Below are positions 5,656 through 26,850 of a DNA stretch of 26,850 nucleotides, in pieces. The position numbers and the translations under genes were made by a program. Below the pieces are notes generated by a model. The model was not told the origin of the DNA and searched no databases. It saw only the letters and a program-made list of their open reading frames with translations. This DNA comes from a virus. How positions within the stretch are numbered: the first letter of the stretch is position 1; each line of letters begins with the position of its first letter. The DNA is taken from the IMG/VR virus record IMGVR_UViG_3300025276_000179, positions 1 to 26,850 of that record; one strand, given 5' to 3'.

Positions 5656-5829
5656 TTATTCGACAATATCACATTCCTTTTTACCTTCCCTTCTAAATCG
5701 CTTGTTGTATCCTTTCTTGATATTAGCAGAAACTCCTGCCTTTGTCAAGTAACAATACCATTGCTTTGCATTAGTTAAAACATCAAACTCTGCGCCACTA
5801 TTCATTTTAATCTTCGGATTCTTCTTCAT
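5656..5829 (-). CDS. Small basic protein, 57 residues, unknown function
   Basis: The ATG at 5829 overlaps the TGA of the oxygenase gene (ATGA) and the frame ends with TAA at 5656, 17 bases before the gene 17 start. The protein is strongly basic: KKNPKIKMNSG at the N-terminus, then FDVLTNAKQWYCYLTKAG, and NIKKGYNKRFRREGKK near the end. The aromatic YCYL segment and a lysine/arginine cluster suggest RNA, DNA or acidic-protein binding, but no family is recognised. The tight coupling on both sides and the gap-filling length support a real gene. It could be a cofactor of the oxygenase or of the packaging motor; this is inference. Confidence 0.75.
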   Translation of the reverse strand: MKKNPKIKMNSGAEFDVLTNAKQWYCYLTKAGVSANIKKGYNKRFRREGKKECDIVE

Positions 5830-6374
5830 CGTATAAAGACCTGTATAGATTTTCTTATGGGAGCATCATGTCTTGTCGCTGTTACACCATGCAGTATCTT
5901 ACCTCTCTGGAATACTGACATTCCTAGATCGGGTTTGATTGCAGTGGTTAATGTTGCACCGTCCATCCTACATACAAAGTAACCACCATAGTCGTCCTGC
6001 CAATCATCATTTAGGTATATAGACGCTGATGAACTATGACCACTATCTTTGTGCCAGTTGAGACCGAACTTACTTTCTCCTTCATAGTACATTATACTAT
6101 AATCAGAAGGATTTTTACTAGTACCAAATAATTCTACACATTTATTTATTATAGGGTTGACAATCTCCCCATCGCATAGTACAATGAGCCTTGTGTAACC
6201 CTCTACATCCTTTATAAGATCTTCTGGCCAATCATCATTAACTACTCTTGGGAGGTTTTCTGAAGCTTCTTTTACATAATCAAGTATCTTTTCATACACT
6301 TCTGTAGTAAATGTATTATCAGTTATTAGTAGTTCTTGATCTGCTCCTTTTCTATGTGCTACTATCTTCGTCAT
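5826..6374 (-). CDS. 2OG-Fe(II) oxygenase (prolyl-4-hydroxylase-like) between genes 16 and 17
   Basis: 182 residues from the ATG at 6374; a TTG two codons upstream is less likely. GAGGA lies about 11 bases ahead. The fold signature is complete: H108-K-D110 (NWHKDSG) and H162 (KILHGVT) as iron ligands, and R174-x-S176 (IRKSIQVF) for 2-oxoglutarate. A GGYFVCR strand lies between them, as in prolyl-4-hydroxylase and AlkB-like enzymes. It should couple 2-oxoglutarate decarboxylation to hydroxylation or demethylation of an unknown protein or nucleic acid. The gene start lies inside gene 16, and its TGA overlaps the ATG of the next small gene (ATGA). It is therefore embedded in the packaging operon and expressed late with the motor. 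Such oxygenases are frequent in marine T4-like phages, but their substrates are not established. Confidence 0.85.
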   Translation of the reverse strand: MTKIVAHRKGADQELLITDNTFTTEVYEKILDYVKEASENLPRVVNDDWPEDLIKDVEGYTRLIVLCDGEIVNPIINKCVELFGTSKNPSDYSIMYYEGESKFGLNWHKDSGHSSSASIYLNDDWQDDYGGYFVCRMDGATLTTAIKPDLGMSVFQRGKILHGVTATRHDAPIRKSIQVFIR

Positions 6375-6753
6375 ATTCAATTATGTCCTCATCAGCCGCG
6401 CCCAATAGCATACGCTGGAGATCTGTCGTAGACCCCACAAATAGATTATTGTTTGTAGTACCCCCACTAGACGATTCGCTAGGAGCATCTTCTTTGGTAA
6501 TTTCTTTCTGCTTTTTATTCAGATCCATTAACTTATCGTTAACGTCAGAGATACCTTTGATCATACCAGAAAGAACTTCGAACGCACGAGGGTGTTCTGA
6601 CTCTCGCGCAACTTCAATCATCAACTCTAAAGACTCCCGACCCTTTTCGATTAGGTCGTAGTAAGTCTCTCTTGAATATTCATAATCTGTAGTTATATTC
6701 TTAGCCTGCACATCATCGACCACGGCAGGGACATTGCTTGAATCACTCATCAT
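6352..6753 (-). CDS. 16: Terminase small subunit gp16
   Basis: 133 residues from the first of two tandem ATGs; T4 gp16 is 164. The motif DYEYSRETYYDLIEKGRESLELMIEVARESEHPRAFEVLSGMIK is conserved in T4-like small terminases and forms the central helical oligomerisation region. It is followed by DKLMDLNKKQKEI and an acidic, Ser/Gly-rich tail ending in DEDIIEYDED. gp16 binds DNA as a ring and regulates the gp17 motor. Gene 16 starts 7 bases after the gene 15 stop. Its 3' end overlaps the oxygenase gene by 23 bases, whereas in T4 it runs directly into gene 17. Confidence 0.9.
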   Translation of the reverse strand: MMSDSSNVPAVVDDVQAKNITTDYEYSRETYYDLIEKGRESLELMIEVARESEHPRAFEVLSGMIKGISDVNDKLMDLNKKQKEITKEDAPSESSSGGTTNNNLFVGSTTDLQRMLLGAADEDIIEYDEDSST

Positions 6754-9296: not shown

Positions 9297-12200
9297 TTAG
9301 TTAACAATAGTACCGTTTACATCATAAACATCGATACGGTAGTGCGAAGGTGATTGACTACCTAATGAACCAGCATCTCCAGAAGAAGCAACGTGTAAGG
9401 TTGAAGCAACTTCTGTTTCGTCTATAGAGATAGTACCTGTTACAGGGTCATAAGCGATACATATCCCACCAATCAATATTGACTTGGCCCCATCGATTCC
9501 GCCAGCAATTGCTTCGGACTTAGCAGTTGCAATACTTGCAGTAGTTGAAGTAGCATCCGCCTTAGTTGCAAGACTTGCAGTAACAGTAGATGCAAAGTTC
9601 GCATCATCTCCTAGAGCAGCAGCTAGTTCGTTAAGAGTATCTAACGAAGCAGGAGCAGCATCAATTACACTAGCAACCGCAGCTGAACCAACACCATCCG
9701 CATAAGATTGCGCGGCAGCTTGAGCAGCATCTGCTTTAGTCGTTGCATCAGCACTTGCAGTAGAGATCGCAGAAGCTTGAGCAGCATTTGACTTACTAGT
9801 CGCATCAGCACTTGCAGTAGAGATCGCAGAAGCTTGAGCAGCATCTACTTTAGTCGTTGCATCAGCACTTGCAGTAGAGATTGCGGCAGCTTGAGCAGCA
9901 TCTGCTTTACTAGTTGCGTCAGTCCCAGCTGCAGCTTGCGCGGCATTTACTTTACTAGTTGCATCAGCAGCAGCAGTTACTTCAGCGGCAGACTGTGCAG
10001 TGGAGATTGCACTTGTCGTACCTAAAGTATCAGTGTAACCAGAAAGATCTACACCAGCAACACCTGAATCAACATATGCTTTAGTTGCCGCATCTGTACC
10101 ACTCGTTGGCGTTCCAAGATTAGAAATCTTGTTTCCGTCCATGTCAACATCAGCAGTCATCTGAATGTCAGTTGAACCTGAAGAGGTGCTAATACCAGAG
10201 ACCTGATTTTGCAGTATAGCAATTGCTTGGTTGTTAATAGTTTCAGCAGAAGTCGCACGAGTTGTTTCGGCAGTTAAGTCAACTTGACTTGCCTTATCAT
10301 CAAGAGCGGTAACATCTGCCTTAGTAGCAAGTGCGGCAGTAGTTGCAACGTCATCTGCCTTAGTACCAATTGAAGCAGTAACAGTTGATGCAAAGTTTGC
10401 GTCATCTCCAAGGGCAGCAGCCAACTCGTTAAGAGTATCTAGAGCAGCAGGAGCAGCATCTACAACATTAGCGACTTCAGTAGTAATTGCTGAGTTCATC
10501 TCTGTAGTAGTTGAGTATGGAGTCAAATCTGTAGAAGGAATTGCAGCGATAGCGGCAGTTCTAGCAGAAGTCTCAACAGCAATAGCAGCAGTCGTCTGTA
10601 CAGTTGTTGAGTACGGAGTTAAGTCAGTTGCAGGAATTGCAGCAATAGCAGCAGTTCTAGCAGCAGTCTCAGCAGCAATAGCAGCAGTCATACCTGAAGT
10701 ATCAGTGTAACCAGAAAGATCTACACCAGCAACACCTGAATCAACATATGCCTTTGTAGCAAATACTGAATCGTCTACAGTATACACTGGAGAAGTTGTT
10801 ACACTAGCGTTCCAGAAATATGTTTTATTTGCCCAATAGTCTCCTACTACAAGAATACCACCAGAAAGATCTGATAATTTAGGAGTCAACGGCCAATCGC
10901 CACTGTTCAGCTGAGGATTGTCAATAGATCCAATTAAAGTTGGAGTACTTAACATATTATAAAGATAAACTTTACCTGCTCTAGAATCACTAGAACCATC
11001 ACCAGTATCGCCTCTTTCAGCACTTACAAATAATGTTCCGTTAGATATTTCAACACCTCTACCATAGGAAGAGTCTTCCGAAGAACCCATACCTCTTTGT
11101 GGATTTACTATAGAAGAAATGTAGGAACCATCTGTCGCGGAGTAAATATAAATTGCGCCAGAGTGGCCACTTGGAGTTTGACCTATAGAACCTTTAGTAC
11201 TTGAAGCTCCAACAACATAATAGTTATCATCCGAAGTGGTAACCAAACCAAAAACACTAGTATCAGATGTGTTTGGGTTATCTAGAGTGTGTATTAAAGA
11301 ACCATCATTTACGTTAAATACAAACACTTTACCACCAGAACCAAACTGATCACCATATGCAAAAGGTGCTCCCACGAGAACCTTATTTCCATGTGATGAT
11401 ACACCGTCCATCTTATCTAGTAAGTATCCAGCGCCAGAAAATTTAGTATAAACTGAAGGGTTTGGATTAGCTATCTTTAGAATCTGATCACTACTAATGT
11501 CATAAACATAAACTGCTCCATTTTCAGAATCCGCTGTATGATCAGAAACAATAACTTTGTCACCGTTAATCGCTACAGACTTACCGAATTCTTTATCTGA
11601 ACCAGAAAAATCAACTCTTGACTTTTCAGCAACTACTGAACCATCAGTTGTTGAATAAACAATAAGTTTTCCCTGACCAGCAAGAACATAATAATCATCG
11701 TTTAATGCTGAAGAAGCACCTAATTTAGCCCAATCTGAACCATTGTAAGGATTTGTGTCTGCAATGAAATAATCTTGATTTACAGACAGATCTTTCCAAT
11801 AAACTCCATATCCCCAAGATCCTTGATTCGACTGACCTTCATAAGTTGCAAAAATTCCTGTCCCATTAGTTTGTACCGTTGTAATAGTACCTCCTTGTGG
11901 CCCACTAGGAAGAGTTTGATATGCGCTATTTACATCCCAAGTCGTTTCGGTAACATTCGCGGAAGAAATTCCAGTTCCAAAGTCTTCTGGTTGTACCGCA
12001 GTATCAGCAAGAGCACCTTGAGCGGCAGTTGCCTTAGTTGCAAGAGCAGCAGTAGTTGCAGCATCATCCGCCTTAGTCGCAAGAGCAGTAGTAGTTGCAG
12101 CATCATCAGCCTTAGAGGCAAGACTAGTAGTAACAGTAGATGCGAAGTTTGCATCGTCACCTAATGCGGCAGCTAGTTCGTTCAACGTATCCAATGCGGC

Positions 12201-15200
12201 AGGAGCAGCGTCTACCGTAGCAGCAACTACTTGGTCTGCATAAGACTGAGCTTCTGACTTAGCAGTTGCAATAGAAGAATCCATTTCAGCAGTAGTTGAG
12301 TATGGAGTCAAGTCAGTTGCAGGAATTGCAGCAATAGCAGCAGTCATACCTGAAGTATCAGTGTAACCAGAAAGATCTACACCAGCAACACCTGAGTCAA
12401 CATATGCTTTTGTAGCAAATACAGATTGGTCTACAACATAATTCGTAGTAGTGTTTAAACTTGCGGTTACTTTAAATGATGCAAGCATATTGCCACGAAC
12501 CTGATTCCTTGTAACAACTATGGCACCATCAACAAAAACGGCAGCACCAAAAAGGTTGCTTTCAAGAATTGCAGCTCCAGCATCATCTCCGCCAAAAATT
12601 ACACCATCATCAAATGCAGCTTGTTGTACCTCATGAGGAATTTCTCCGATATAACTACCATCGGTGGTATTAAAAAAGTGTAATGTTCTACCGTTTATTC
12701 TGAAGTCAGACTGACCATAAGTACCAGACGAATTATCTTGACCTTCTTCATACACTACCAAAGTATCAGTATTTTGATCAAGTGAGATTTTAGCACCAAA
12801 ATTAGTGTCTTTAGATCTTAATCCTGAAGGTAGATTATATGAGTTAGTAAAGGTTCCAGTATTTACATCGAATTCTTCCACCGAATGATAAGTATTGGAT
12901 GTTCCATTACCGTCTCTGTTAGCAAAATAATACTTCCCGTTAACGAAAGCATTAGTCCCAGCCAAAATCCACATATAAGCATCACCTAAGCTAAACGTGG
13001 TTTCTTCGGTTGTCATTCCAGAATCAAAACGATATAATTTTGGTTCATATACTGTCGCATATTGAGAATTAGTTGACTCTACTACATAAACCTTTCCAGC
13101 GGTTGGGTCTGTAAAAATAAAGTCTCCGAAGTTTTTACCGTCTACGGGTTTTATAATCGATCTAACAAGACTACCGTTATGATCAAATACTTGGACAGCG
13201 CCCGAATTATCAGTGCTTGATGTTCGATGATAAGAATGACCAACGTATATGTAATTATCATCTACAGCCAAGCTACGGGCATCCGTATATCCACCACTTT
13301 GCCAAGACCTAGTGTCTATTGTAAAGTTAGTCTGATAAGTTGCTCCACTAGAATCTAGTGTATAGACATAAAGTTCGGAAGTCTGATTGTATGCACCAGC
13401 TTTTAAAACGACTAAAGTATTATTAGACTCACTTGGGTTTAAAGCTATTAGATTACCCCAAGTATTATGTTGGACATAGGACTCAGGATTGGGTATCCAA
13501 TCTATTATATCTCCAGAATCGTTATATACAATCACCAAACCTTCAAAAGATCCCTTTGTGTGAGAAGTATTTCCCCAATTAGAGGCGTTATTACTTGGAG
13601 CCAAAGCATTCTTGAAAGCGGATACAGCAAATGATCCATTATGAACGGACTTGTTATTATTTGCTGGGAGATTTGGTAATACAGCACCAGCATCAATTAC
13701 CGATTGGAAGTCAGCATTGTTAAAGTCATGTGCAGACATGCTTGGGACAGTCCAGTCGTAAGCAGTAGTTGTACTAGACACTAATCCAGTCGATAAATCA
13801 GCAGGTTGCAATGCCGTATCAGCGAGAGCACCTTGAGCGGTAGTTGCAACGGCACTAGAATCTGCCTTAGTAGCAAGAGCAGTAGTGTTAGTAGCAATAT
13901 CAGCAACCGCAGCATCAAGAGCAGTAGAATCTGCCTTAGCGGCAAGACTAGTAGTAACAGTAGATGCGAAGTTTGCATCGTCACCTAGAGCAGCAGCCAA
14001 CTCGTTAAGAGTGTCTAGTGCGGCAGGAGCAGCATCTACAGTTGCAGCGACTTCAGCAGTAATTGCAGTATTCATTTCCGCAGTAGTTGAGTAAGGAGTC
14101 AAGTCAGTTGCAGGAATTGCAGCAATAGCGGCAGTTCTAGCAGCAGTCTCAGCAGCAATAGCAGCAGTCATACCTGAAGTATCAGTGTAACCAGAAAGAT
14201 CTACACCAGCAACACCTGAGTCAACATATGCCTTCGTAGCAAACAATGAATCGTCTACTCCAAAAGAACTGCTTGATGATGTTGTTGGGACTATAGCACG
14301 TATTGCGCTATCATCAACGTTAAGAATAGTTGATCCTGAAAGAGCAGTAAAAATTGGACGACCAGTAATGCCGATAGCTTTTACTAAGTTTCCGTTTGTG
14401 ACATCAAATACGAAAAGTTTACCAGTAGCGCCTCCGGCGAATTCGTTTGCCATAGCGAAACCGTAATTACCATCAATGGCTATAGTACCATTAAATCTTT
14501 GACTACCGCCTCCTTTTAGGCCTAACTTCTTCAGCGTAGTTGGTTCGGGATTCTCAAATGTGGATACATAAGAGTAATCTGACACATTAAACACATCTAT
14601 TGCTCCAGGCGCGTCATTTAGGGGCCCGCCATTCTGAGCAAATCTGACTACTAACAAATACTGATCGTTTGCAATCAAGTTTTCGCCAAAGTACTCATCC
14701 TGAGTATATGCAGATGGAGATGTTAAGTTTTCAAGAACTATAGAAAAAGTTGTCAGATCAACTACACTAACTCTACCTCTATTTTGATCATAGTGTTTGT
14801 GACCACAGAATAGTTTGTCTCCGGAAATTGTAAAGTTTCCACCTATATACTCTCGATTCAAACTATTTAACAAAGTACCATCGATATTATACAAATGTAT
14901 GTAATCAGGCAAATCGAATCCAGAACCGACAACAATCTTATCTTCTCCATAGAATTCTATGTCTGCTTGATAAGAACCATGATCAGCTGGAACGAAAGAG
15001 TAAAGTAAAGAACTATCTGTTAATGAGTGAATTTTAAGTCCTCCAGAAGCACTATCGCCTGGATTTAACACAGCAATTTTATCACTACTCATTGTTATTG
15101 CGGAAAGTTCATCGACACTAATTGAAAATTGCATATTAGTGGGATCAGACATAGGATAAACTTCCACACTTCCGGATACGTGAAAGGCGAAGTGAGTATC

Positions 15201-17846
15201 ATTCGCAAAAAAGTCCGCTTCTCGTTCAGCTGACCGGTTCAAAATTATCCCATCGCTTATTACGTCCTGAGACCAATCAGAAACACTAGTATTAATTGTT
15301 GTAATACCAGTTCCAAAGTCTTCTGGTTGTACCGCAGTATCAGCAAGAGCACCTTGAGCAGTGGTTGCCTTACTAGCAAGAGCAGCAGTAGTTGCAGCAT
15401 CATCAGCTTTAGTCGCAAGAGCAGTAGTAGTTGCAGCATCATCAGCCTTAGAGGCAAGACTAGTAGTAACAGTAGATGCGAAGTTTGCATCGTCACCTAG
15501 AGCAGCAGCCAACTCGTTAAGTGTGTTTAATGAATCTGGCGCGGTATCAATTACATTTGCAACGGCAGTATTTACAGCAGTATCAATATCAGATTGAGTT
15601 AAAAGATCTGAAGTATTCGCTAATTCTACCCAATTACCAGCATGAGCAAAGTAACCTTTACCTGTCGCATGAACATGAGCAAACATACCATGATAAGTAG
15701 TTGCGCTTGGTAAGTCCGCTAATGTTGAGTACATGTTGCCGAATAATACCTTATTTCCACTCATATCTAGGTCAGAACCAGTAACGTCTACGCCAGCAAT
15801 TGCAGTATTCATTTCAGCAGTAGTTGCATATGCAGATAAGTCCACACCAGCGACAGCACTATCAATCACTGTTTGATCAACATTTAAAGTTGTAGTTGAT
15901 CGTAATTCAGCACTAAACGATACTTGTTGCCATCGTGGGTTGGCGTTGTAAATTTCATCGAATACTATAAGACCAGAATTTGTCATAATAGACACATTGA
16001 AAGAGTTACTCTCAAACCATTCTATTTGATTCCAATTAGCTTGATCTGTACCTTCTTGGTTCTGATTTATAATATATCCATCACTCATTGCCTGGGATGG
16101 ATTAGAAGATCCTATAAGATTTCCAGTCGAAGTATCATAAAAATGAATTGATCGTCCAATCAATCGGAAGCTATCTGTCCCCCATTCTCCAGTATTATAA
16201 CTACCCTGTTCGACCACAGATAAAGTTCCAGAAACTTTATCAATATGCATACTCTGACCCCAGTTGGTGTTTGAAGTTCTAGGGATAGGCAATAATGTTT
16301 TATCTAAGACTCCTGTGGTTATATTAATTTTCCACACAGCATTCCATATTCCTGTGGGATAATTAGTACCGTTTTGACTATTATTAACTACATAAAGGTG
16401 ACCATCATAAACTTGCGCCATATTAGGGCCGTAATGAATTGTTGCTTCTGTATCACCACCATAAGGAAAATCATGAGTATAAAGTAAAGAAGATCCATCT
16501 GAATTATAAACTTTCATATATGGATTATAATTACGATCTGTATAATTGCTAGCAGATGAAGCGACAACTATGAGCATATCATTATCAAACCGTACCTGAG
16601 CGCCAAAATTGTCCTTAGCGCTACCGGCAGTATTTGTTCTAATTAAATTTCCAGAAAAATCATAAACTGAGAATCCACCAGAGTCATGACCATTAGAACT
16701 GTCCAAGGGAGCTCCCAAAAAGAGATGTTGATTACTCATGCAAACAGCTCCGTCTACACCGACACCTGACTGTCCTAACCAATGTTGACTGGTTTTTGTA
16801 GCGCCCGTTGAATCTAAATCATAAAACGCCACTTTTGTATTTCCAGTGCCTTGATAGTTTGTCATACCCGCAGTGATAATGACCATTTTTGACCCATCTG
16901 GACTCACTTCTGATGATTTGATGTCTGTGGCGATACCGTATCCGCCAGGAATTTCGGTAAGCGAAGTATCACTCCAAACTACATCAACCATATTACCGTC
17001 TGAATCAAAAATTAATACAGCGCCAGTCTGATAGATGCCATCTGGATTTCCGAGATTATTTGTACTTTCTACACTGGGCGTATCAAAACTACCATAGTAC
17101 TTAGAGACGGCACCATTTGTGAATTGCCAGCTGGCAAACCGCGAAAGAGTCAGGGTACTAAATGTACCAGTAGTTGATGTTTGACATTGTTGTGTCGGTG
17201 TAGAAATCTGAAATCCATTTCCGGCCGATTCGGGATAATCATTATGATTTTGAAGTAATTCGTTCCAAGCAGGAAGCATTTTATTGGACACCGATTCGTA
17301 AGTTTGAGTCGCCCAACTATAATTATTAACAGTGGTTTCTGTGAAACCAGTTCCTTTATCCATAACTGCTAATGTACCGAGATCTCCAGGCTGTACCGCA
17401 GTATCAGCGAGTGCGCCTTGATTAAAAGAGGCCACACCATTTGTGATTTGTGCAGTAACCGCATCCAAGTCTGCTTGTTGTGCGGCAGTATCAGCAAGAG
17501 CACCTTGAGCAGCAGTTGCTACGCCACTTGCAAGAGTTTGTTGAATCTGCGTAATTGCAGTTGAATTATTGGTGATTAAAGTTGAAATGTCACCGTCTTC
17601 ACTTTGGAATAAAGCGACAATCTCTTGGAGTGTATCCAAGTGTTCCGGAGAAGTGCCAAGGATTGTATCTACCTGTGCCTGAAGTGCTGCGAGGTCAGTC
17701 GCGACTGCTTCGTTCACAGCATCAGTGATTGCTGGCAGTAAAAGTTTTCCTTCTTCGGTAATGACTATTTGGCCGCCGACTACTACTTCACCAACGATGT
17801 CGACACCATTTTGTATTCTAAATTTCTTGTTATTTGTAGAACTCAT
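9297..17846 (-). CDS. Giant modular tail fibre with four beta-propeller-like domains (2849 residues)
   Basis: The N-terminus (FRIQNGVDIVGEVVVGG) and C-terminus (LGSQSPSHYRIDVYDVNG) are typical of marine T4-like phage fibres. Coiled-coil-like linkers separate four beta-rich modules at about residues 169-655, 850-1197, 1361-1805 and 1967-2355. The modules repeat blade-like units (GAVYVYD..., FGKSVAINGDKVIVS, LFLGAPLDSSNG) as in FG-GAP or PQQ-like beta-propellers. Each is preceded by QGALADTA(V/L)QP and most are followed by FATKAYVDSGVAGVDL. Modules 1 and 3 resemble each other; 2 and 4 share their flanking linkers. Residues about 703-740 hold a His-rich knob (AHVHATGKGYFAHAGNW). Five LDTLNELAAALGDDANF-type units recur. 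The likely role is a surface-exposed, host-binding trimeric fibre. No enzyme active site is recognised. It is preceded by a 68-base gap with a hairpin and ends in a strong terminator. Confidence 0.8.
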   Translation of the reverse strand: MSSTNNKKFRIQNGVDIVGEVVVGGQIVITEEGKLLLPAITDAVNEAVATDLAALQAQVDTILGTSPEHLDTLQEIVALFQSEDGDISTLITNNSTAITQIQQTLASGVATAAQGALADTAAQQADLDAVTAQITNGVASFNQGALADTAVQPGDLGTLAVMDKGTGFTETTVNNYSWATQTYESVSNKMLPAWNELLQNHNDYPESAGNGFQISTPTQQCQTSTTGTFSTLTLSRFASWQFTNGAVSKYYGSFDTPSVESTNNLGNPDGIYQTGAVLIFDSDGNMVDVVWSDTSLTEIPGGYGIATDIKSSEVSPDGSKMVIITAGMTNYQGTGNTKVAFYDLDSTGATKTSQHWLGQSGVGVDGAVCMSNQHLFLGAPLDSSNGHDSGGFSVYDFSGNLIRTNTAGSAKDNFGAQVRFDNDMLIVVASSASNYTDRNYNPYMKVYNSDGSSLLYTHDFPYGGDTEATIHYGPNMAQVYDGHLYVVNNSQNGTNYPTGIWNAVWKINITTGVLDKTLLPIPRTSNTNWGQSMHIDKVSGTLSVVEQGSYNTGEWGTDSFRLIGRSIHFYDTSTGNLIGSSNPSQAMSDGYIINQNQEGTDQANWNQIEWFESNSFNVSIMTNSGLIVFDEIYNANPRWQQVSFSAELRSTTTLNVDQTVIDSAVAGVDLSAYATTAEMNTAIAGVDVTGSDLDMSGNKVLFGNMYSTLADLPSATTYHGMFAHVHATGKGYFAHAGNWVELANTSDLLTQSDIDTAVNTAVANVIDTAPDSLNTLNELAAALGDDANFASTVTTSLASKADDAATTTALATKADDAATTAALASKATTAQGALADTAVQPEDFGTGITTINTSVSDWSQDVISDGIILNRSAEREADFFANDTHFAFHVSGSVEVYPMSDPTNMQFSISVDELSAITMSSDKIAVLNPGDSASGGLKIHSLTDSSLLYSFVPADHGSYQADIEFYGEDKIVVGSGFDLPDYIHLYNIDGTLLNSLNREYIGGNFTISGDKLFCGHKHYDQNRGRVSVVDLTTFSIVLENLTSPSAYTQDEYFGENLIANDQYLLVVRFAQNGGPLNDAPGAIDVFNVSDYSYVSTFENPEPTTLKKLGLKGGGSQRFNGTIAIDGNYGFAMANEFAGGATGKLFVFDVTNGNLVKAIGITGRPIFTALSGSTILNVDDSAIRAIVPTTSSSSSFGVDDSLFATKAYVDSGVAGVDLSGYTDTSGMTAAIAAETAARTAAIAAIPATDLTPYSTTAEMNTAITAEVAATVDAAPAALDTLNELAAALGDDANFASTVTTSLAAKADSTALDAAVADIATNTTALATKADSSAVATTAQGALADTALQPADLSTGLVSSTTTAYDWTVPSMSAHDFNNADFQSVIDAGAVLPNLPANNNKSVHNGSFAVSAFKNALAPSNNASNWGNTSHTKGSFEGLVIVYNDSGDIIDWIPNPESYVQHNTWGNLIALNPSESNNTLVVLKAGAYNQTSELYVYTLDSSGATYQTNFTIDTRSWQSGGYTDARSLAVDDNYIYVGHSYHRTSSTDNSGAVQVFDHNGSLVRSIIKPVDGKNFGDFIFTDPTAGKVYVVESTNSQYATVYEPKLYRFDSGMTTEETTFSLGDAYMWILAGTNAFVNGKYYFANRDGNGTSNTYHSVEEFDVNTGTFTNSYNLPSGLRSKDTNFGAKISLDQNTDTLVVYEEGQDNSSGTYGQSDFRINGRTLHFFNTTDGSYIGEIPHEVQQAAFDDGVIFGGDDAGAAILESNLFGAAVFVDGAIVVTRNQVRGNMLASFKVTASLNTTTNYVVDQSVFATKAYVDSGVAGVDLSGYTDTSGMTAAIAAIPATDLTPYSTTAEMDSSIATAKSEAQSYADQVVAATVDAAPAALDTLNELAAALGDDANFASTVTTSLASKADDAATTTALATKADDAATTAALATKATAAQGALADTAVQPEDFGTGISSANVTETTWDVNSAYQTLPSGPQGGTITTVQTNGTGIFATYEGQSNQGSWGYGVYWKDLSVNQDYFIADTNPYNGSDWAKLGASSALNDDYYVLAGQGKLIVYSTTDGSVVAEKSRVDFSGSDKEFGKSVAINGDKVIVSDHTADSENGAVYVYDISSDQILKIANPNPSVYTKFSGAGYLLDKMDGVSSHGNKVLVGAPFAYGDQFGSGGKVFVFNVNDGSLIHTLDNPNTSDTSVFGLVTTSDDNYYVVGASSTKGSIGQTPSGHSGAIYIYSATDGSYISSIVNPQRGMGSSEDSSYGRGVEISNGTLFVSAERGDTGDGSSDSRAGKVYLYNMLSTPTLIGSIDNPQLNSGDWPLTPKLSDLSGGILVVGDYWANKTYFWNASVTTSPVYTVDDSVFATKAYVDSGVAGVDLSGYTDTSGMTAAIAAETAARTAAIAAIPATDLTPYSTTVQTTAAIAVETSARTAAIAAIPSTDLTPYSTTTEMNSAITTEVANVVDAAPAALDTLNELAAALGDDANFASTVTASIGTKADDVATTAALATKADVTALDDKASQVDLTAETTRATSAETINNQAIAILQNQVSGISTSSGSTDIQMTADVDMDGNKISNLGTPTSGTDAATKAYVDSGVAGVDLSGYTDTLGTTSAISTAQSAAEVTAAADATSKVNAAQAAAGTDATSKADAAQAAAISTASADATTKVDAAQASAISTASADATSKSNAAQASAISTASADATTKADAAQAAAQSYADGVGSAAVASVIDAAPASLDTLNELAAALGDDANFASTVTASLATKADATSTTASIATAKSEAIAGGIDGAKSILIGGICIAYDPVTGTISIDETEVASTLHVASSGDAGSLGSQSPSHYRIDVYDVNGTIVN
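9751..9921 (-). repeat. 57-bp tandem coding repeat, three copies
   Basis: The motif beginning GCACTTGCAGTAGAGA (plus strand) starts at 9751, 9808 and 9865, an exact 57-base period. It encodes the 19-residue unit AISTASADATTKVDAAQAS near the C-terminus of the giant fibre, an Ala-rich and probably helical spacer. Confidence 0.92.
10621..10770 (-). repeat. Linker repeat following propeller module 4
   Basis: This is the partner of the repeat at 14101-14250. Both follow a 'B-type' propeller module, which supports duplication of a two-module unit. Within the linkers, an exact 43-base core recurs four times, at 10025-10067, 10697-10739, 12353-12395 and 14177-14219. It encodes SGVAGVDLSGYTDT and neighbouring residues. 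Confidence 0.92.
11971..12163 (-). repeat. Linker repeat preceding propeller module 4 (copy 2)
   Basis: This is the second copy of the 193-base linker found at 15307-15499. High base identity between the linkers contrasts with strong divergence of the propeller modules they flank, which suggests recent duplication or gene conversion. Confidence 0.9.
14101..14250 (-). repeat. Linker repeat following propeller module 2
   Basis: Bases 14101-14220 match 10621-10740 at 118 of 120 positions by direct comparison, with transitions at the 30th and 120th base. The region encodes FATKAYVDSGVAGVDLSGY and the ten-residue unit ETAARTAAIA. A third, shorter version at about 12311-12410 lacks one 30-base unit. 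Confidence 0.92.
15307..15499 (-). repeat. Linker repeat preceding propeller module 2 (copy 1)
   Basis: This 193-base coding stretch matches 11971-12163 with only about 7 differences counted by eye, including a run of more than 80 identical bases. The offset of 3336 bases is a multiple of three. It encodes the (T/A)TTALATKADDAATT...AQGALADTAVQPEDFG linker. Confidence 0.9.
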
Positions 17847-17914: not shown

Positions 17915-20900
17915 TTATGCGTCGATATACGAAGCGGATACTGATACTACTGCACCAGCAATAGATGCGGTATATGTTAATTCAACACTTGAACCATTTA
18001 CCTGAACGTCGGTATCACCAAGTATATTATTACCTGTGAATATAATACCGTACTCAGTTATATATGCTTCTGTTCCGTCATGGATAACTAGACATTCGCG
18101 AGTCTCGAATTCACCGTTGTTTTCTACAGTGACTACGTACTTAGCAGAACGAGTCATAGTCTTGTTGAATGCAGAAACTACTGTAGCAGAAGTTCCGACA
18201 ACAACATCGTTACCCTGTTCGAAGACTTTGATGTTATCAGCAAGAGTTTCAATACCGACCGACTTAGGATCTAGTACACCAACCGAGTTGGTAGACTGAG
18301 CGATTATTACTGCCTGTGTACCGACCGGAAGTGCAGCCATGAATGTAATTTGTTGAGAAACAGCATCAATCGAATAGTGAACCGATGGATCCTGAATAAC
18401 ACCACCAACAAATACCATTGCGTTAGCTTCTTGAGTGTAGAAGTCTATAGCGAAAGTAGACTGTGCACCGTCACCAGAAATCACTTGACGTTTTGCGTCA
18501 TTAAATGCTAATTCTTTAGGATCTACAAGTTCAATACCTGACCCATCTGTCTTAACACGAGCAACAAAACCTTCTTTACCAGCAATTGTTGAATCAGTGA
18601 CATCGGATAGTTCAGTAAATGCTTTAGAAGTATCTAATGAGAACACACCGTCTGTCTCAGATACCTTTCCTTCGCCAGCAACGTCAACTACAGATACCGC
18701 AGCGTGTACGCGTTCTGGAGTGAAGTATTTGTTAGAACTGTCTTCCGAAAGATCAGCAGTAGAGAATTGAGAGATATGTTGAGCAGCAAGATCTGAAACT
18801 AATTGTCCCTTGTTTACAGCATCAGCATCAGCAGTACCATTAGCAAGACCAGAAACTTTGTTTCCACCCATTGCTAGGTCGCCTGTCATAGAATCTCCAG
18901 ACTTCTGAACACGTCCGTCGATTTGAGTCTGTAGACCAGTATCAGCCGCAGCGAACTCGCCACGTACCGCAGTATCACCAGCGATTCGATCACTAATTTC
19001 TTGTGCAAGACCAGAAGTGTTAGTTGCGATGTCAGTTTGGTTCTGAGTGATCAGACCAGTTAGAGTACCATCAGCATTTTGGAATGCAGAAACGATCTCA
19101 GTCAATGAATCAAGAGCAGCACTATCAGTGTTTGAAGTGATGAAGTCGATTTGACCTTGTAGAGAACCTTCAACACCCTGTGCGCGAGATGATTCAGTGA
19201 CGATTGACTGTGCGTTAGTGTTGATTAAGACACCGTTAGCAACTTCAGCCGCAGTAGCGCGAGAAACTTCTGTTGCCAGGTTAGATGTTAATACACCTTC
19301 GACAGCAATAGCACGAGCAATTTCAGAATCTATCTGTGATTGCAAGTTAACATCACCAGCGACTCGATCGTCATCAGCAGATTTGATTGCAGTATCTAAC
19401 TTCTTGTCTGCATCGGTTAGAGACGTAGATAGATCAATAAAGTTAGTGTTTTCTGGAGCAGAGTATGTTCCATCAGCGTTTACTCCAGCAGCAAGTTGAG
19501 TTGCAGACATCTCTGATTCAAGTACTGTAGCACGTGTGTCTAGTGCGTTATCGGCAACTTGACGTGCAGTTGACTCTGTAGAGATCTTACTGTCTAAGAC
19601 GACATCAGCATTATCACGTAGAGTTGCTTCACCAGCAACGATACCGTCTGCGTAAATCTTAGCAGCAGCTTCAGCATCATCTGCTTCTGATTCTGCATAA
19701 GACTGTGCAGATGCAAGAACAGCTGCGTCACGTGCAGTATAGTCTGCTTGATCAGTAACACGATCTGCTGCGAGATCAGAACGGATTAGTGCGTCAGCAG
19801 CAGTACGTAATAAGATTTCTGAAGCAAGTGCGTCACTATCAGCATCAGCGTTAGCTTCAGCAGTAGTCATACGACCTTCGATTGAATCTACTTCACCGTG
19901 AATCTCATTGATTGCACCAGTGATGATTTGAGAAGTAGTATCGAAAACACCAGTACCTAACTTAGTTTCTAAGTTATCGATGTCACTCTCGTTAACTGTT
20001 AGACGACCACCTTGTAGTGTCTGTTCAGTTTCTAGAGCAGTTGCTCGTGACTCAACAGCAGTTGCACGTCCTTCGACAGCATCCATTTCACTTTCTAGAG
20101 TAGATACCTTAACAGCTTCTGCGTCTAGTTCAGTGTGGATCTCGTTGATTGCAGCAGTAACATCAGTTGCTACAGTAGCAAGTACTGTAGTACCCATCTG
20201 AGTTTGTAGAGTGTCAACATGACCTTCTTCTGTAGATACACGTGATTCTAGAGATGTTGCACGACCTTCTACTGCGTCCATTTCAGACTGTAGAGTATCA
20301 ACATTTGCTTCTTCTGTAGTAACACGAGCAGCAAGAGCAACAGCGGATGCAACAGCTGCATCCATTTCTGTATGCAATTCATTGATTGCTCCAGATACGT
20401 TAGTTTCCGCAGTATCGAGAGTAGCAGAACCTTGCTTGGTTTCTAAGTCAGTTGCGCGAGTTTCTAGAGAAGTTGCACGTCCTTCGACAGCAGTTGCACG
20501 GCCTTCGACAGCAGTTGCACGAGATTCTAAGTCAGTTGCACGTACTTCAACAGCGTCCATCTCTGTTTGTAGAGTATCGACGTGACCAGCTTCAATATCT
20601 AGTTCTGCGTGAATCTCATTGATTGCGGCAGATAGGTCAGTTGCAGTAGTTTCTAGAGTAGAAGAACCTTGCTTAGTTTCTAGTGAACTGATGCTTGCTT
20701 CATTAACATTCAAACGACCATTCTGAGTAACTTGTTCACTTTCTAGAGCAGTTGCACGTGACTCAACACCAGTAGATCTAGCTTCAACATCAGTTGCGCG
20801 AGTTTCTAGAGAAGTTGCACGTCCTTCGACATTAGTCAGTCGACCAGAGTTAGCAGTAATGATACCTTGAATATCTGAGTCAGCATCTTCAAACGCAGCA

Positions 20901-23821
20901 ACGATTTCTTGTAGAGTGTCTAGAGTTTCTGGAGAAGTACCAATGATTGCATCGACACGACCAGTTACACTATCCACATCAGTACGTAGACCAGCTTCAA
21001 CACCAGACGCACGATTTACTTCAGCAGTAATCTGTGCTTGGTTGTCTGCGTGGTCACTAGCTTGTAGGTTTGTTAATGCAAGAATGTCTGCATCGTTAGT
21101 GATAACTTGTGATTGAACACTATCCACATCAGTACGTAGACCAGCTTCGATTCCTTCTGCACGTGATTTCTCAGTAGCAATAGCGGAAGCGTTAACAACT
21201 TCTGCGGCAGTAGCGCGAGCAACTTCAGCAGTAATTTGTGATTGGTTGTCTGCATGGTCAGATGCTTGTAGAGTTTCTAGAGCAAGAATGTCTGCATCGT
21301 TTGCAGTAATTTGTGCTTGTTGTAAATCTACATCAGAACGTAGACCAGCTTCAATACCAGATGCACGAGTAACTTCAGCAGCGATTGCAGTTGAGTTAAC
21401 AACTTCAGCAGCAGTTGCACGAGTAACTTCAGCAGTAATTTGTGATTGGTTATCATCGTGGTCACTTGACTGTAGAGTTGCAAGAGCAGAAATATCAGAA
21501 TCGTTAGAAGTGATCTGTCCTTGTAAAGAATCGACAGAAGTCTGTAGACCAGCTTCAACACCAGACGCACGATTTACTTCAGCAGTAATCTGTGCTTGGT
21601 TGTCGGCATGATCAGATGCTTGAAGTGTTTCTGCACTATCGATACGTGATCCTAAAGCAGATTCTGCAGCTAGAGCACGAGTATTTTCAGAAACTATTGA
21701 ACCGGCATTTGCAGTAATGTTTACAGTATTAGTGTTAACGTCTGTACGTAGTCCAGCTTCAACAGCTTCAGCACGTTGACGTTCAGTGACAACAGCTGCA
21801 GCATTAGTTGATTCTGCACCTTGTGCACGTGTAACTTCAGCAGTAACTTGAGTTTGGATATTAGAATCAGCAAGAATTCGAGCAGCTTCTTCAGCGTCGA
21901 TTTGACCTTGTAGACTTGAATCGCCAGATGCACGAGCAACTTCTTCTGCACGTAGATCAATTTCATTCTGTGCAGCAAGAGCTTCGACAGAGTCCATATC
22001 ACCTTCTAGTACAGTAGTACGTAGAGATAGTGCGTCATCAGCAGCCAAACGAGTCGCTGCTTCAGCAGAAACCTGTGAGTCCGTGTATGCATATGATTCT
22101 GACTTTGCAGTTGCGATACGAGAAGTAATAGTGTTACCGACAGAACCGTCTACAGATGCGTCACCGATAAGTGCAGTATCTTTTGCGTCAGCATGTGCCT
22201 TAGCAACTGCTTCATGTGAGTCTGCTTCTTGATCAGTGTAAGACTTAGCAGCAGCAAGAGTAGCTGCATCATTAGAGATACGAGCAGTTTCTTCTGTGTC
22301 AATCTGTGACTGTAAACCAGCATCAGCAGTTGAACGAGTTGACGCTTCACTATTGATATTAGTTTGTAGAACACCTTCAGCACTTGTTGCTCGAGAAGTC
22401 TCACTAGAGATTGCAGTAGTGTTAGATGCAACTAGAGCAGACATATCAGAGTCAGCACCTTCGAATGCACTAACAATTTCCGTTAGTGAGTCAAGAGCAG
22501 CTGGATCAGTATTAGTAGTAATAAAGTCAATTTGTGTCTGTAATGCAGAATCTCCTGCGATACGAGCAGCAGTTTCATTAGAATCCGCAGTTGTTAGATC
22601 AGCAAGCTCTGCATCGTTTGAAGTGATCTGTGACTGTAAGCTAGACTCGACAGTTTCCGAACGTGTCTTCTCGACTAATACTTTAGAAGAGGCATCAGCA
22701 GAAGAGAAAGTTTGAGCAGATATTCTAGAAGTTGTAATACGATCAGTTACAGTATTGTTGGTGGTTCCATCTACAGTAGCATCACCAAGCTTTAATGCGT
22801 CTTGTGTGTCTGCGTGTGCCTGAGCAGCATTCTGTGCAGCAACAATGTCAGCGCCTAACTCAGTACGAACCTGAGTATCAGCAATAGCGCGAGCAGTGAT
22901 TTCGTCTTGTAGATTTTGAGCGTTTGCAAGTTCTGAACCAGTAGCACGAGCAATTTCGTCAGCAACATCTTGTGTAAGAACTGCTTCTGCAGCACTAGCA
23001 CGAGCAACTTCAGTAGTAACTTGTGACTGTAGAGAAACCGAAGTTTGTTCTTCAGTAGTAACACGAGCAGCAAGAGCAGTATCAGCAGAGATACGTGCAA
23101 TCTCTTCTGCACTTAGGAGAGAAGTGTTCGCAAGTTCTGCCGCTGTAGCACGAGCAGTTTCAACAGCAATTGCAGTTGCATTTTCAGTCTCTTTACCAGT
23201 TGCACGTGCAGTTTCCGCAGTAATTGCAGAAGAATTAGCAATGATAGAACCAGATAATACATCATCCGCACCTTCAAATGCAGCAATGACTTCTACGAAA
23301 GAATCGATTGCGCTTTGATCAGTATTGCTTAGAATGTCATCAATTCGGCCAGAGAGCGCAGTATCAGCTGACTGAGATGCTACTTCAATTGAATCTTCAC
23401 GTAGTGTTGCACGGGTTGCTTCAGCAGTAATGTTAGATTGTAGAGTAACATCTGCTTGAGCGCGTGTAGATGCTTCTGCGTCGATGTTAGATTGTAGTAA
23501 AGTCTCAGCCGCTGAAGCACGGTTAGTTTCTACTAATACAGATGCAGCGATATCGCCTGCAACAGCTGTTTTAGCACGTTGATCAGTGAAATATAGGTTA
23601 GTTCCTTCTGATAAATCAGTTGTTGAGAATGATGCAAAGAATGCGTCTGCACCAATTTTCTTTAATGAGTCAGAATTGACATCATAAAGAAGGGTGAAAC
23701 AGTCCGCTGGATTAATCATGCCTGTAAGGGTGGTTTGTCCCTGTACTGCACTTTCATCAAGCTTGGTATTTAGTACTGCTTTATCCGCTAATGCAGCGGA
23801 TTTAATCTGCCTAAAAGCCAT
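17915..23821 (-). CDS. Giant segmented coiled-coil fibre protein (1968 residues)
   Basis: The ATG start is preceded by AGGAG with a 7-base spacer. An N-terminal head (about 1-100) includes DLSEGTNLYFTDQRAKTAV, a common fibre module. Residues about 100-1680 are almost entirely heptad-like Ala/Glu/Arg/Thr segments (ETARATAAE, QITAEVTRATAAE). Interspersed are four 'DSLTEIVSAFEGAD'-type turns, a block of 50- and 68-residue repeats (about 725-940), strict heptads such as VEGRATAVEGRAT (about 1088-1127) and four GAINEIH modules. The C-terminus (about 1684-1968) is beta-rich. It has a second 'NKYFTPERVHAAV' copy and a VFVGGVIQDPSVHYSID module like those in the upstream small proteins. This is most likely a homotrimeric fibre or whisker; T4 carries the segmented coiled-coil fibritin (wac) near this position. 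It could also be a proximal tail-fibre subunit. Confidence 0.8.
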   Translation of the reverse strand: MAFRQIKSAALADKAVLNTKLDESAVQGQTTLTGMINPADCFTLLYDVNSDSLKKIGADAFFASFSTTDLSEGTNLYFTDQRAKTAVAGDIAASVLVETNRASAAETLLQSNIDAEASTRAQADVTLQSNITAEATRATLREDSIEVASQSADTALSGRIDDILSNTDQSAIDSFVEVIAAFEGADDVLSGSIIANSSAITAETARATGKETENATAIAVETARATAAELANTSLLSAEEIARISADTALAARVTTEEQTSVSLQSQVTTEVARASAAEAVLTQDVADEIARATGSELANAQNLQDEITARAIADTQVRTELGADIVAAQNAAQAHADTQDALKLGDATVDGTTNNTVTDRITTSRISAQTFSSADASSKVLVEKTRSETVESSLQSQITSNDAELADLTTADSNETAARIAGDSALQTQIDFITTNTDPAALDSLTEIVSAFEGADSDMSALVASNTTAISSETSRATSAEGVLQTNINSEASTRSTADAGLQSQIDTEETARISNDAATLAAAKSYTDQEADSHEAVAKAHADAKDTALIGDASVDGSVGNTITSRIATAKSESYAYTDSQVSAEAATRLAADDALSLRTTVLEGDMDSVEALAAQNEIDLRAEEVARASGDSSLQGQIDAEEAARILADSNIQTQVTAEVTRAQGAESTNAAAVVTERQRAEAVEAGLRTDVNTNTVNITANAGSIVSENTRALAAESALGSRIDSAETLQASDHADNQAQITAEVNRASGVEAGLQTSVDSLQGQITSNDSDISALATLQSSDHDDNQSQITAEVTRATAAEVVNSTAIAAEVTRASGIEAGLRSDVDLQQAQITANDADILALETLQASDHADNQSQITAEVARATAAEVVNASAIATEKSRAEGIEAGLRTDVDSVQSQVITNDADILALTNLQASDHADNQAQITAEVNRASGVEAGLRTDVDSVTGRVDAIIGTSPETLDTLQEIVAAFEDADSDIQGIITANSGRLTNVEGRATSLETRATDVEARSTGVESRATALESEQVTQNGRLNVNEASISSLETKQGSSTLETTATDLSAAINEIHAELDIEAGHVDTLQTEMDAVEVRATDLESRATAVEGRATAVEGRATSLETRATDLETKQGSATLDTAETNVSGAINELHTEMDAAVASAVALAARVTTEEANVDTLQSEMDAVEGRATSLESRVSTEEGHVDTLQTQMGTTVLATVATDVTAAINEIHTELDAEAVKVSTLESEMDAVEGRATAVESRATALETEQTLQGGRLTVNESDIDNLETKLGTGVFDTTSQIITGAINEIHGEVDSIEGRMTTAEANADADSDALASEILLRTAADALIRSDLAADRVTDQADYTARDAAVLASAQSYAESEADDAEAAAKIYADGIVAGEATLRDNADVVLDSKISTESTARQVADNALDTRATVLESEMSATQLAAGVNADGTYSAPENTNFIDLSTSLTDADKKLDTAIKSADDDRVAGDVNLQSQIDSEIARAIAVEGVLTSNLATEVSRATAAEVANGVLINTNAQSIVTESSRAQGVEGSLQGQIDFITSNTDSAALDSLTEIVSAFQNADGTLTGLITQNQTDIATNTSGLAQEISDRIAGDTAVRGEFAAADTGLQTQIDGRVQKSGDSMTGDLAMGGNKVSGLANGTADADAVNKGQLVSDLAAQHISQFSTADLSEDSSNKYFTPERVHAAVSVVDVAGEGKVSETDGVFSLDTSKAFTELSDVTDSTIAGKEGFVARVKTDGSGIELVDPKELAFNDAKRQVISGDGAQSTFAIDFYTQEANAMVFVGGVIQDPSVHYSIDAVSQQITFMAALPVGTQAVIIAQSTNSVGVLDPKSVGIETLADNIKVFEQGNDVVVGTSATVVSAFNKTMTRSAKYVVTVENNGEFETRECLVIHDGTEAYITEYGIIFTGNNILGDTDVQVNGSSVELTYTASIAGAVVSVSASYIDA
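20440..20565 (-). repeat. 21-bp (heptad) microrepeats
   Basis: The DNA repeats with a 21-base period and encodes successive heptads of the form (V/L)E(G/T/S)RAT(A/S/D). Adjacent copies such as VEGRATAVEGRAT are nearly identical at base level. A similar but more diverged block lies at about 20735-20835. A perfect seven-residue repeat is direct evidence for a regular coiled coil. Confidence 0.85.
21031..21640 (-). repeat. 204-bp and 150-bp tandem coding repeats in the coiled-coil gene
   Basis: The same motif (minus strand, encoding DNQ(S/A)QITAEV) starts at 21031, 21235, 21439 and 21589, giving spacings of 204, 204 and 150 bases. The 68-residue unit is the 50-residue unit plus an 18-residue insert of the ATAAEVVNSTAIAAEVTR type. 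Each unit also carries LQASDHADNQ and IEAGLR(S/T)DVDS. Repeats in whole codons extend the fibre without breaking the reading frame. Confidence 0.9.
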
Positions 23822-25686: not shown

Positions 25687-26394
25687 TTAATCTTTAGACT
25701 CGATATCTGCTAAGACCATCTCACGGAAGTCCGCTGATGCGTCTGAGTAATCAAACACATAAGATACCGTACAACGCCAGTCTTCAGTAGAAGCTGCGTG
25801 ATACATTACTTTATCTTCTTCACCGTAGTGACCGAAGTATGCTGCTTTGCATGTCCACTTACCAGCTTCGTCTTGACTACGGATAACTTCCTTAGTTTCA
25901 GGATGAATGTAGTCAAAGTAACCAGAACCGTCTTCTGAGTATGAGAAAATTAAGTTATAGCCCGGAGCATTCGCATTGTTATGCCAAGAAATAAATCCTC
26001 CTGGCGGATATACTGCCGCTAGTGCGTTATGTTTTACTGATAAAAAGTTCATCATCTTATCGTTAAGATCACGTAGATGGTGAGTCATGTCACGTTTGAA
26101 AACAGGATCGGCATCCTTCTCAAACATCATATGAGCTTTATCAGAAAGTTTGAAGTTGTAACCAACAAGTTCGTCTGGAAAACCTTCGTGTCTTGTGTCT
26201 TGTGCAACAATCTCTTCCATATGCTTAGGGCCCACATAGTATGGACGCTGACGAATATGTTGTGAGGAGGACAAGTGACAGTTTTTTTCAAAACCATGTA
26301 TGGTATGTAACTTAGCGTATTCGTTTAGAACCTCTAACAGTTCAGGGTTATTAACCTCAACGTGTCTGAGGTATTGGTCGTTTACCTGTGTCAT
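25687..26394 (-). CDS. 2OG-Fe(II) oxygenase-like protein with HNN in place of HxD
   Basis: This 235-residue protein starts at the ATG (26394-26392) that overlaps the TGA of the glycosyltransferase-like gene. An upstream in-frame extension would sit wholly inside that gene and is not used. The C-terminal half looks like a double-stranded beta-helix oxygenase of the type common in T4-like marine phages: YPPGGFISWHNN around residues 129-140, a PGYNLIFSYSEDGSGYF core strand, then MYHAASTEDWRCTVSYVF at 197-214. H199 would be the distal iron ligand and R207 the 2-oxoglutarate-binding Arg. The first motif is H138-N139-N140, so the acidic residue of the facial triad is missing. It may use a neutral ligand, bind iron differently or be non-catalytic. 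Pairing with a glycosyltransferase fits a hydroxylate-then-glycosylate step, but that is inference. Confidence 0.6.
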   Translation of the reverse strand: MTQVNDQYLRHVEVNNPELLEVLNEYAKLHTIHGFEKNCHLSSSQHIRQRPYYVGPKHMEEIVAQDTRHEGFPDELVGYNFKLSDKAHMMFEKDADPVFKRDMTHHLRDLNDKMMNFLSVKHNALAAVYPPGGFISWHNNANAPGYNLIFSYSEDGSGYFDYIHPETKEVIRSQDEAGKWTCKAAYFGHYGEEDKVMYHAASTEDWRCTVSYVFDYSDASADFREMVLADIESKD

Positions 26395-26850
26395 ACGATT
26401 GGAGTATCCTTGTTTAACCCAGCAGAGAAGTGACGTAATATCACCGGCCCACTTTCGGGTTTTGTGATTGCCCAATTAAGGGCATTGTAATAATTCCACC
26501 TCAAGTCATCATCGAAGATACCAACTTTGAGGTCTTTGTATTTAGGTTCTTTCTCAGTTAACCACCAAAGAGAGAATTGATCCCAAGACTTTAGAGAATC
26601 AATATAACCTTCCGGCCACCAAGTGTCGTTCATTTGTTTGTAGGTTAAGTCCCACCAGTCATCCATAAATTCACGTACAATAGGTTTTGACATATCATAT
26701 AAACATACACCACCACATAGAGTGAATTTAGCCATACCTTCTGGTGTGGAGAAATCACGTTCCGCATAAATGTAATCACGGTCATCAGTCAATGCTGAGA
26801 AGACCACGTCGTGATCTTTCATTTCATCCCAAACTTTAATAATATCTTCG
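26391..26850 (-). CDS. Glycosyltransferase-like protein (5' end outside window)
   Basis: The reading frame stays open to the window edge upstream of the first visible Met (26822), so the N-terminus is missing. About 153 residues are visible. They resemble the C-terminal half of a GT-A fold (GT8-like) sugar transferase. Visible signs are a Gly-Gly segment followed by a hydrophobic strand (CGGVCLYD), a Trp-rich helix, a later Asp-Gln motif (SWDQFSLWW), and a C-terminal His/Gly/Lys motif (RHFSAGLNK) like the one that completes the metal and nucleotide-sugar site in such enzymes. The expected upstream DxD motif would lie outside the window. The TGA stop overlaps the ATG of the next gene (ATGA), so the two are probably translated together. 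The likely role is transfer of a sugar to a virion protein, DNA or host envelope component; the substrate cannot be inferred. The family call is from motif pattern only. Confidence 0.55.
   Translation of the reverse strand, partial: EDIIKVWDEMKDHDVVFSALTDDRDYIYAERDFSTPEGMAKFTLCGGVCLYDMSKPIVREFMDDWWDLTYKQMNDTWWPEGYIDSLKSWDQFSLWWLTEKEPKYKDLKVGIFDDDLRWNYYNALNWAITKPESGPVILRHFSAGLNKDTPIV

Follow-up and report, generated by a model that had tools for sequence, protein, structure and literature searches.

A fibre gene with four propeller-like modules in the wac slot of a T4-like phage, and a candidate cassette system

In phage T4, the slot directly upstream of gene 13 belongs to wac (fibritin). In the T4-like virus record analysed here, that slot holds a 2849-aa fibre carrying four large modules, and the question is what such a chain is and how its modules came together.

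Locus and features

The window, meaning the whole stretch of DNA analysed, is the entire 26,850-base virus record (IMG/VR record IMGVR_UViG_3300025276_000179). Read along the minus strand, its genes are fibre, fibre, gp13, gp14, gp15, gp16, oxygenase, gp17, gp18, gp19, gp20 and a short prohead-type protein, the 2849-aa gene being the second of the two adjoining fibre genes. Searches named gp13, gp16 and the short prohead-type protein; the remaining gp names were given by sequence and T4-like order. The fibre gene lies directly upstream of gp13, as wac does in the T4 core order, and fibre-gp13-14-15-16-17-18-19-20 corresponds to wac-13-14-15-16-17-18-19-20 in T4. Gene order also matches that of the relative C48C1 apart from the oxygenase insert.

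Syntenic loci (labelled L below) were collected with a gp13 scan of viral contigs, which gave 80 loci; a second gp13 scan, from another clade, added few. Module similarity was scored as a Smith-Waterman z against 200 shuffles, and module edges, the blade motif and the census of fibres were set by simple in-house rules. The features, from the start of the fibre gene to gp13, were as follows.

9297..17846, minus: fibre gene, 2849 aa, single uninterrupted open reading frame, ATG start
17472..17846, minus: conserved N-terminal end, residues 1-125, 50-86% identity in nine relatives with differing interiors
15879..17345, minus: module M1, type A propeller, residues 168-656, sister of M3, with a profile match to the FG-GAP family and a model resembling propellers
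15306..15878, minus: linker 1, residues 657-847, helical in the model, last 60 residues with 96% DNA identity to the end of linker 3
14256..15305, minus: module M2, type B propeller, residues 848-1197, with blade-end motifs, similar to M4
13785..14255, minus: linker 2, residues 1198-1354, first 60 residues with 94.5-95.5% DNA identity to the starts of linkers 3 and 4
12432..13784, minus: module M3, type A propeller, residues 1355-1805, with propellers as PDB matches of its AF2 model
11970..12431, minus: linker 3, residues 1806-1959, helical, from DNA likeness to other linkers and the AF2 model
10776..11969, minus: module M4, FG-GAP-type propeller, residues 1960-2357, with a PF14312 match and blade-end motifs
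9537..10775, minus: C-terminal helical shaft, residues 2358-2770, repeated alanine-rich and LDTLNELAAALGDDANFASTV segments in tandem repeats
9297..9536, minus: conserved C-terminal end, includes SHYRIDVYDVNGTIVN, last 150 residues with 91% DNA identity to L016
8413..9183, minus: gp13 homologue (head-tail adaptor / neck), directly downstream of the fibre gene, query for the syntenic loci

Residues 1-125 are probably the virion anchor with the first helical segment.

Several neighbouring genes were recorded in passing. The other fibre gene (17915-23821, minus) encodes a mostly coiled-coil-like protein of 1968 aa with 204-base tandem repeats, and is well conserved in relatives that have another fibre in place of its neighbour. 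Between gp16 and gp17 lies a 2OG-Fe(II) oxygenase (5826-6380, minus; PF13640, E 3.8e-7), absent from the near-identical backbones of L015, L016 and L017, where the alignment breaks at 5830-6364; a similar stretch is present in L038 and L052. A 262-aa protein (25687-26475, minus) had no Pfam or PHROG match; on visual inspection, its C-terminal half looks like a further 2OG-Fe(II) oxygenase.

Modules and linkers

The first-pass annotation had described four long beta-rich modules separated by coiled-coil-like linkers, and this layout was borne out, with modules of 350-490 aa between helical linkers and every quoted fibre motif present in the 2849-aa open reading frame. M1 and M3 share the landmarks LDSTGAT (residue 344) and LDSSGAT (1497), NWGQSMHIDK... 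(528) and NFGAKISLDQ... (1682), and FRLIGRSIHFYDTSTG (560) and FRINGRTLHFFNTTDG (1715). QPEDFGTGI occurs at residues 840 and 1952, and VDDS(L/V)FATKAYVDSG at residues 1197 and 2357. Similarity was highest for the same-type pairs (M1/M3, z 25.9; M2/M4, z 11.6) and weaker for the crossed pairs (M3/M4, 6.5; M1/M4, 3.4; M2/M3, 3.0; M1/M2, 2.9), so A-B-A-B is the best pairing among the four modules, and the earlier expectation that M1 would lie closer to M3 than to M2 holds. At the DNA level, likeness between modules is short and scattered, the best being 61% over 223 aligned bases (M1/M3).

The linkers are far more alike than the modules they separate. It had also been proposed that M2 and M4 share their flanking linkers. 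They do so at 96.1% DNA identity for the preceding and 95.5% for the following linkers; the linker after M3, however, is equally close (94.5% to each of those following M2 and M4), so linker identity is no mark of the B modules. Judged by DNA identity, the shared linkers are generic joints of the fibre gene. The longest stretches repeated exactly within the gene measure 91, 89 and 80 bases. Linker 1 additionally holds a short domain-like insert, STLADLPSATTYHGMFAHVHATGKGYFAHAGNWVEL (15612-15779, minus; residues ~690-745), absent from the other linkers.

Propeller folds, also foreseen in the first-pass annotation, found support in an FG-GAP profile, in profile-profile comparison and in the PDB matches of predicted models. 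In a Pfam profile search, M4 matched PF14312 (FG-GAP_2) in four stretches above the curated cut-off (E 4.9e-10) and M1 matched the FG-GAP profile below the cut-off (E 8.5e-4); M2 and M3 gave no FG-GAP match. A profile of the M4 family picks up the propeller of integrin alpha-M (E 5.6e-4), and the M1/M3 profile aligns with the M4-family profile over 218 columns, or about four blades (hhalign probability 95.8%, E 7e-9). M2 and M4 have five regularly spaced blade-end motifs each, against 0.3-0.4 in shuffled copies (0.31 for M2, whose motifs lie 43-61 residues apart). Neither the modules taken singly nor the M1/M3 profile had a relative in a sequence search of the PDB. On these comparisons, the modules are homologous to propellers at the level of sequence.

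The AF2 models, made from 11-12 divergent, imperfectly aligned rows in which two-module rows were anchored on linkers, are weak (mean pLDDT 54 for M3-M4 and 45 for M1-M2). In the M3-M4 model, M3 has ~28 strands and M4 has 26, the module cores reach pLDDT ~70-85, and the linker is helical. This model drew 579 PDB matches at E<=1e-3, almost only beta-propellers (best E 2e-12), headed by proteins with one propeller or with propellers in tandem (YncE, TM 0.64 by target); the matches of the M1-M2 model were likewise almost only beta-propellers (best E 7e-7). The propeller fold of M1-M4 is thus supported by predicted models of low-to-moderate confidence. Strand counts are compatible with seven blades and the motif scan finds 3-5 per module; each predicted propeller is probably seven-bladed.

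Relatives and origin of the module order

The 22 complete fibres found in this slot, with the few from the second gp13 scan counted in, span 657-2849 aa; their two ends are the same, and the number of propeller-sized modules between them is 0-4. One further fibre gene, cut at its start, already runs to 3300 aa with three propeller-sized modules. The C-terminal end motif terminates most of the syntenic fibres listed. In L052 and L053, the fibre carries four propellers of other kinds than the window's, so four-propeller fibres are not unique to the window phage. The fibre genes upstream of gp13 in L022, L024, L049 and L075 have ~140-residue domains, possibly jelly-roll, where others have propellers.

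Close relatives differ within the fibre gene itself. Against the window, L016 has 93-96% DNA identity downstream of the fibre gene and 81% on its upstream side, and from 9773 to 17467 the linker stretches alone match, the interior being otherwise different. By DNA identity the window's fibre N-terminus is closest to L038 and L052 (91%, against 73% to L016); for the gp13 protein the closest is L016 (98%, against 85% for L038 and 82% for L052). The second modules of L016 and L048 share 91% DNA identity and their first modules are unrelated. One module stands after another in L038 and before it in L036, the two copies of the first sharing 82% DNA identity and those of the second 92%. Taken from alignments of the contigs, these patterns establish the modular anatomy of the fibre and the exchange of cassettes between relatives. 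A protein search of isolated phages found none of M1, M2 and M3 and gave three weak matches to M4, and pattern scans of viral contigs with M1, M3 and the M1/M3 alignment returned the near-identical contig only. Among the phages searched, type A is seen only in the window and its near-identical copy, so the exchange seen directly concerns other module kinds.

How, then, did the A-B-A-B order arise? The simplest reading had been taken to be tandem duplication of a two-propeller unit of ~3.4 kb, after which the modules would have diverged and the linkers stayed similar. Such a duplication would make M1 and M3 specific sisters, as the tree has them (support 97/88); the best-scoring partner of M2 is M4 (z 11.3-12.6 across comparisons), the linker ends preceding M2 and M4 are 96% identical, and both pairs are similarly spaced. 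M4, however, is about as close to the second modules of L036 (z 11.1) and L038 (z 10.6) as to M2 (z 11.3), and the tree contains no M2+M4 clade, although constraining one is not rejected (AU p 0.47). The linkers that follow M2, M3 and M4 are all equally alike, and relatives show single-cassette exchange and reversed module order. With M2 and M4 not shown to be sisters and the linkers generic, duplication of the A-B unit is not the best account, and we regard it as doubtful. A quite different objection is that assembly joined fibres of different phages at the repeated linkers, since both module order and the evidence of exchange come from metagenome contigs, in which identical repeats reach 91 bases. 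Two arrangements nevertheless recur in a second contig: the window's fibre gene in 3300009428_000112, with 1 mismatch in 17,819 bases, and the four-module fibre of L052, identical at every base in L053, which comes from a different data set. The reading frames also remain open, and an artefact is very improbable. In our reading, A-B-A-B is one of the states that a cassette system can take. On their sequences, a single type-A propeller gave rise to both M1 and M3, by a real duplication within the lineage or by an old exchange; M2 and M4, homologous and both FG-GAP-like, may have been joined separately.

Proposed function

We consider it fairly likely that this gene encodes a long T4-like phage fibre with constant ends and exchangeable propeller cassettes that act as receptor-binding heads and are swapped through recombination in the linkers. 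The constant N- and C-terminal ends and the helical shaft segments would carry four propellers along one chain, each an interchangeable binding head for host surface molecules. Near-identical linker DNA framing every propeller would supply the homology for recombination between phages, which could swap, add or drop propellers in frame to give new combinations; swapping a whole propeller would change what the phage sticks to. We infer trimerisation, receptor binding and the place on the virion; a trimer would display twelve propellers, as the first-pass annotation proposed. Judging by phi11 (PMC4901313), the most likely role of the propellers is to bind molecules on the host surface.

The analysis identified neither a catalytic nor a ligand site in the modules. 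The propeller is a common glycosidase fold, and the heads might be enzymes that cut surface polysaccharide, as endosialidase tailspikes do, instead of plain binding heads. Neuraminidases do occur among the many propellers matched by the M1-M2 model; with no enzyme family match for any module, and with modules so highly diverse, this seems improbable. The slot raises another alternative. The fibre could be a neck (collar) whisker, its propellers used for environmental sensing, tail-fibre handling or loose attachment and not for primary receptor binding, an idea compatible with the cassette anatomy. Gene order equal to T4's from wac to gene 20 speaks for it, as does the shaft segment LDTLNELAAALGDD, present too in the solved phage 'tail collar fibre' 9d93. 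Membership in the fibritin family, suggested by synteny, was nevertheless rejected: the fibritin N-terminal neck-binding domain was not found in the fibre (hhalign probability 0.3%, E 0.23), the fibre had no PF07921 (Fibritin_C / foldon) match (T4 control, 1e-31), and BLASTP against fibritin gave E 7.8. On these sequence comparisons the fibre is a positional counterpart of fibritin and no member of its family. Its slot, moreover, adjoins other tail-fibre genes as well, and a whisker role is possible but rather unlikely.

Under the receptor-binding reading that we prefer, up to four propellers per chain would be swapped as cassettes between near-identical genomes, and changes of host range could be inferred from which modules are present. 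The constant linkers make single modules easy to find, express and test. Tentatively, and with less conviction, we suggest that in an uncultured T4-like clade the fibritin slot became the site of a polyvalent adhesin with up to four different propellers, rapidly exchanged by means of the homologous linkers. If so, a single virion may carry, at the same time, binding heads suited to several types of host surface.

Comparison with known systems

To our knowledge, the phage propeller adhesins known so far have one propeller per chain. One close counterpart is Gp45 of Staphylococcus phage phi11, a fibre-like receptor-binding protein and proposed binder of teichoic acid GlcNAc, which likewise joins a helical stem and a propeller in each chain (PMC4901313). 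It differs in having one five-bladed propeller per chain and no linker-bounded series, and no sequence similarity was found between it and the fibre. PhiKZ gp131 (gp131C is seven-bladed) and PRD1 P2 also have propellers in putative phage receptor-binding proteins (PMC4901313), but each has a single one. Kelch-domain proteins of jumbo phage CBB are propeller-type too, one of them in the virion; they are of the Kelch type, and a multi-propeller fibre layout is not among the features described in the parts of that report consulted (PMC5259590).

FG-GAP propellers of the M4 kind occur in other marine phages, in a 407-aa protein of cyanophage S-TIM66, a 'TolB' of cyanophage S-SCSM2R and a 1480-aa protein of C48C1, but in other gene slots, one of them as a free-standing propeller. 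The 407-aa propeller of cyanophage S-TIM66 (L013:7431-8654) is annotated as a virion structural protein. Large unannotated virus proteins in BFVD (e.g., E5ERA2) have predicted structures that match the M3-M4 model over both of its propellers; a tandem arrangement by itself may thus not be unique.

As an appendage, the fibre recalls the neck fibre of Anabaena phage A-1(L), a long bead-chain fibre; there, however, the beads are copies of separate proteins and not propellers in one chain (PMC10966104). T4 fibritin shares with the present fibre the slot directly upstream of gp13, a shaft of interrupted helical coils and reported modular change (PMC3797505). Fibritin has no sequence match at either end of the fibre, and its module swapping is held to be old and to have ceased long ago (PMC3797505), whereas swapping in the present fibres is recent and bears on that claim for T4 wac.
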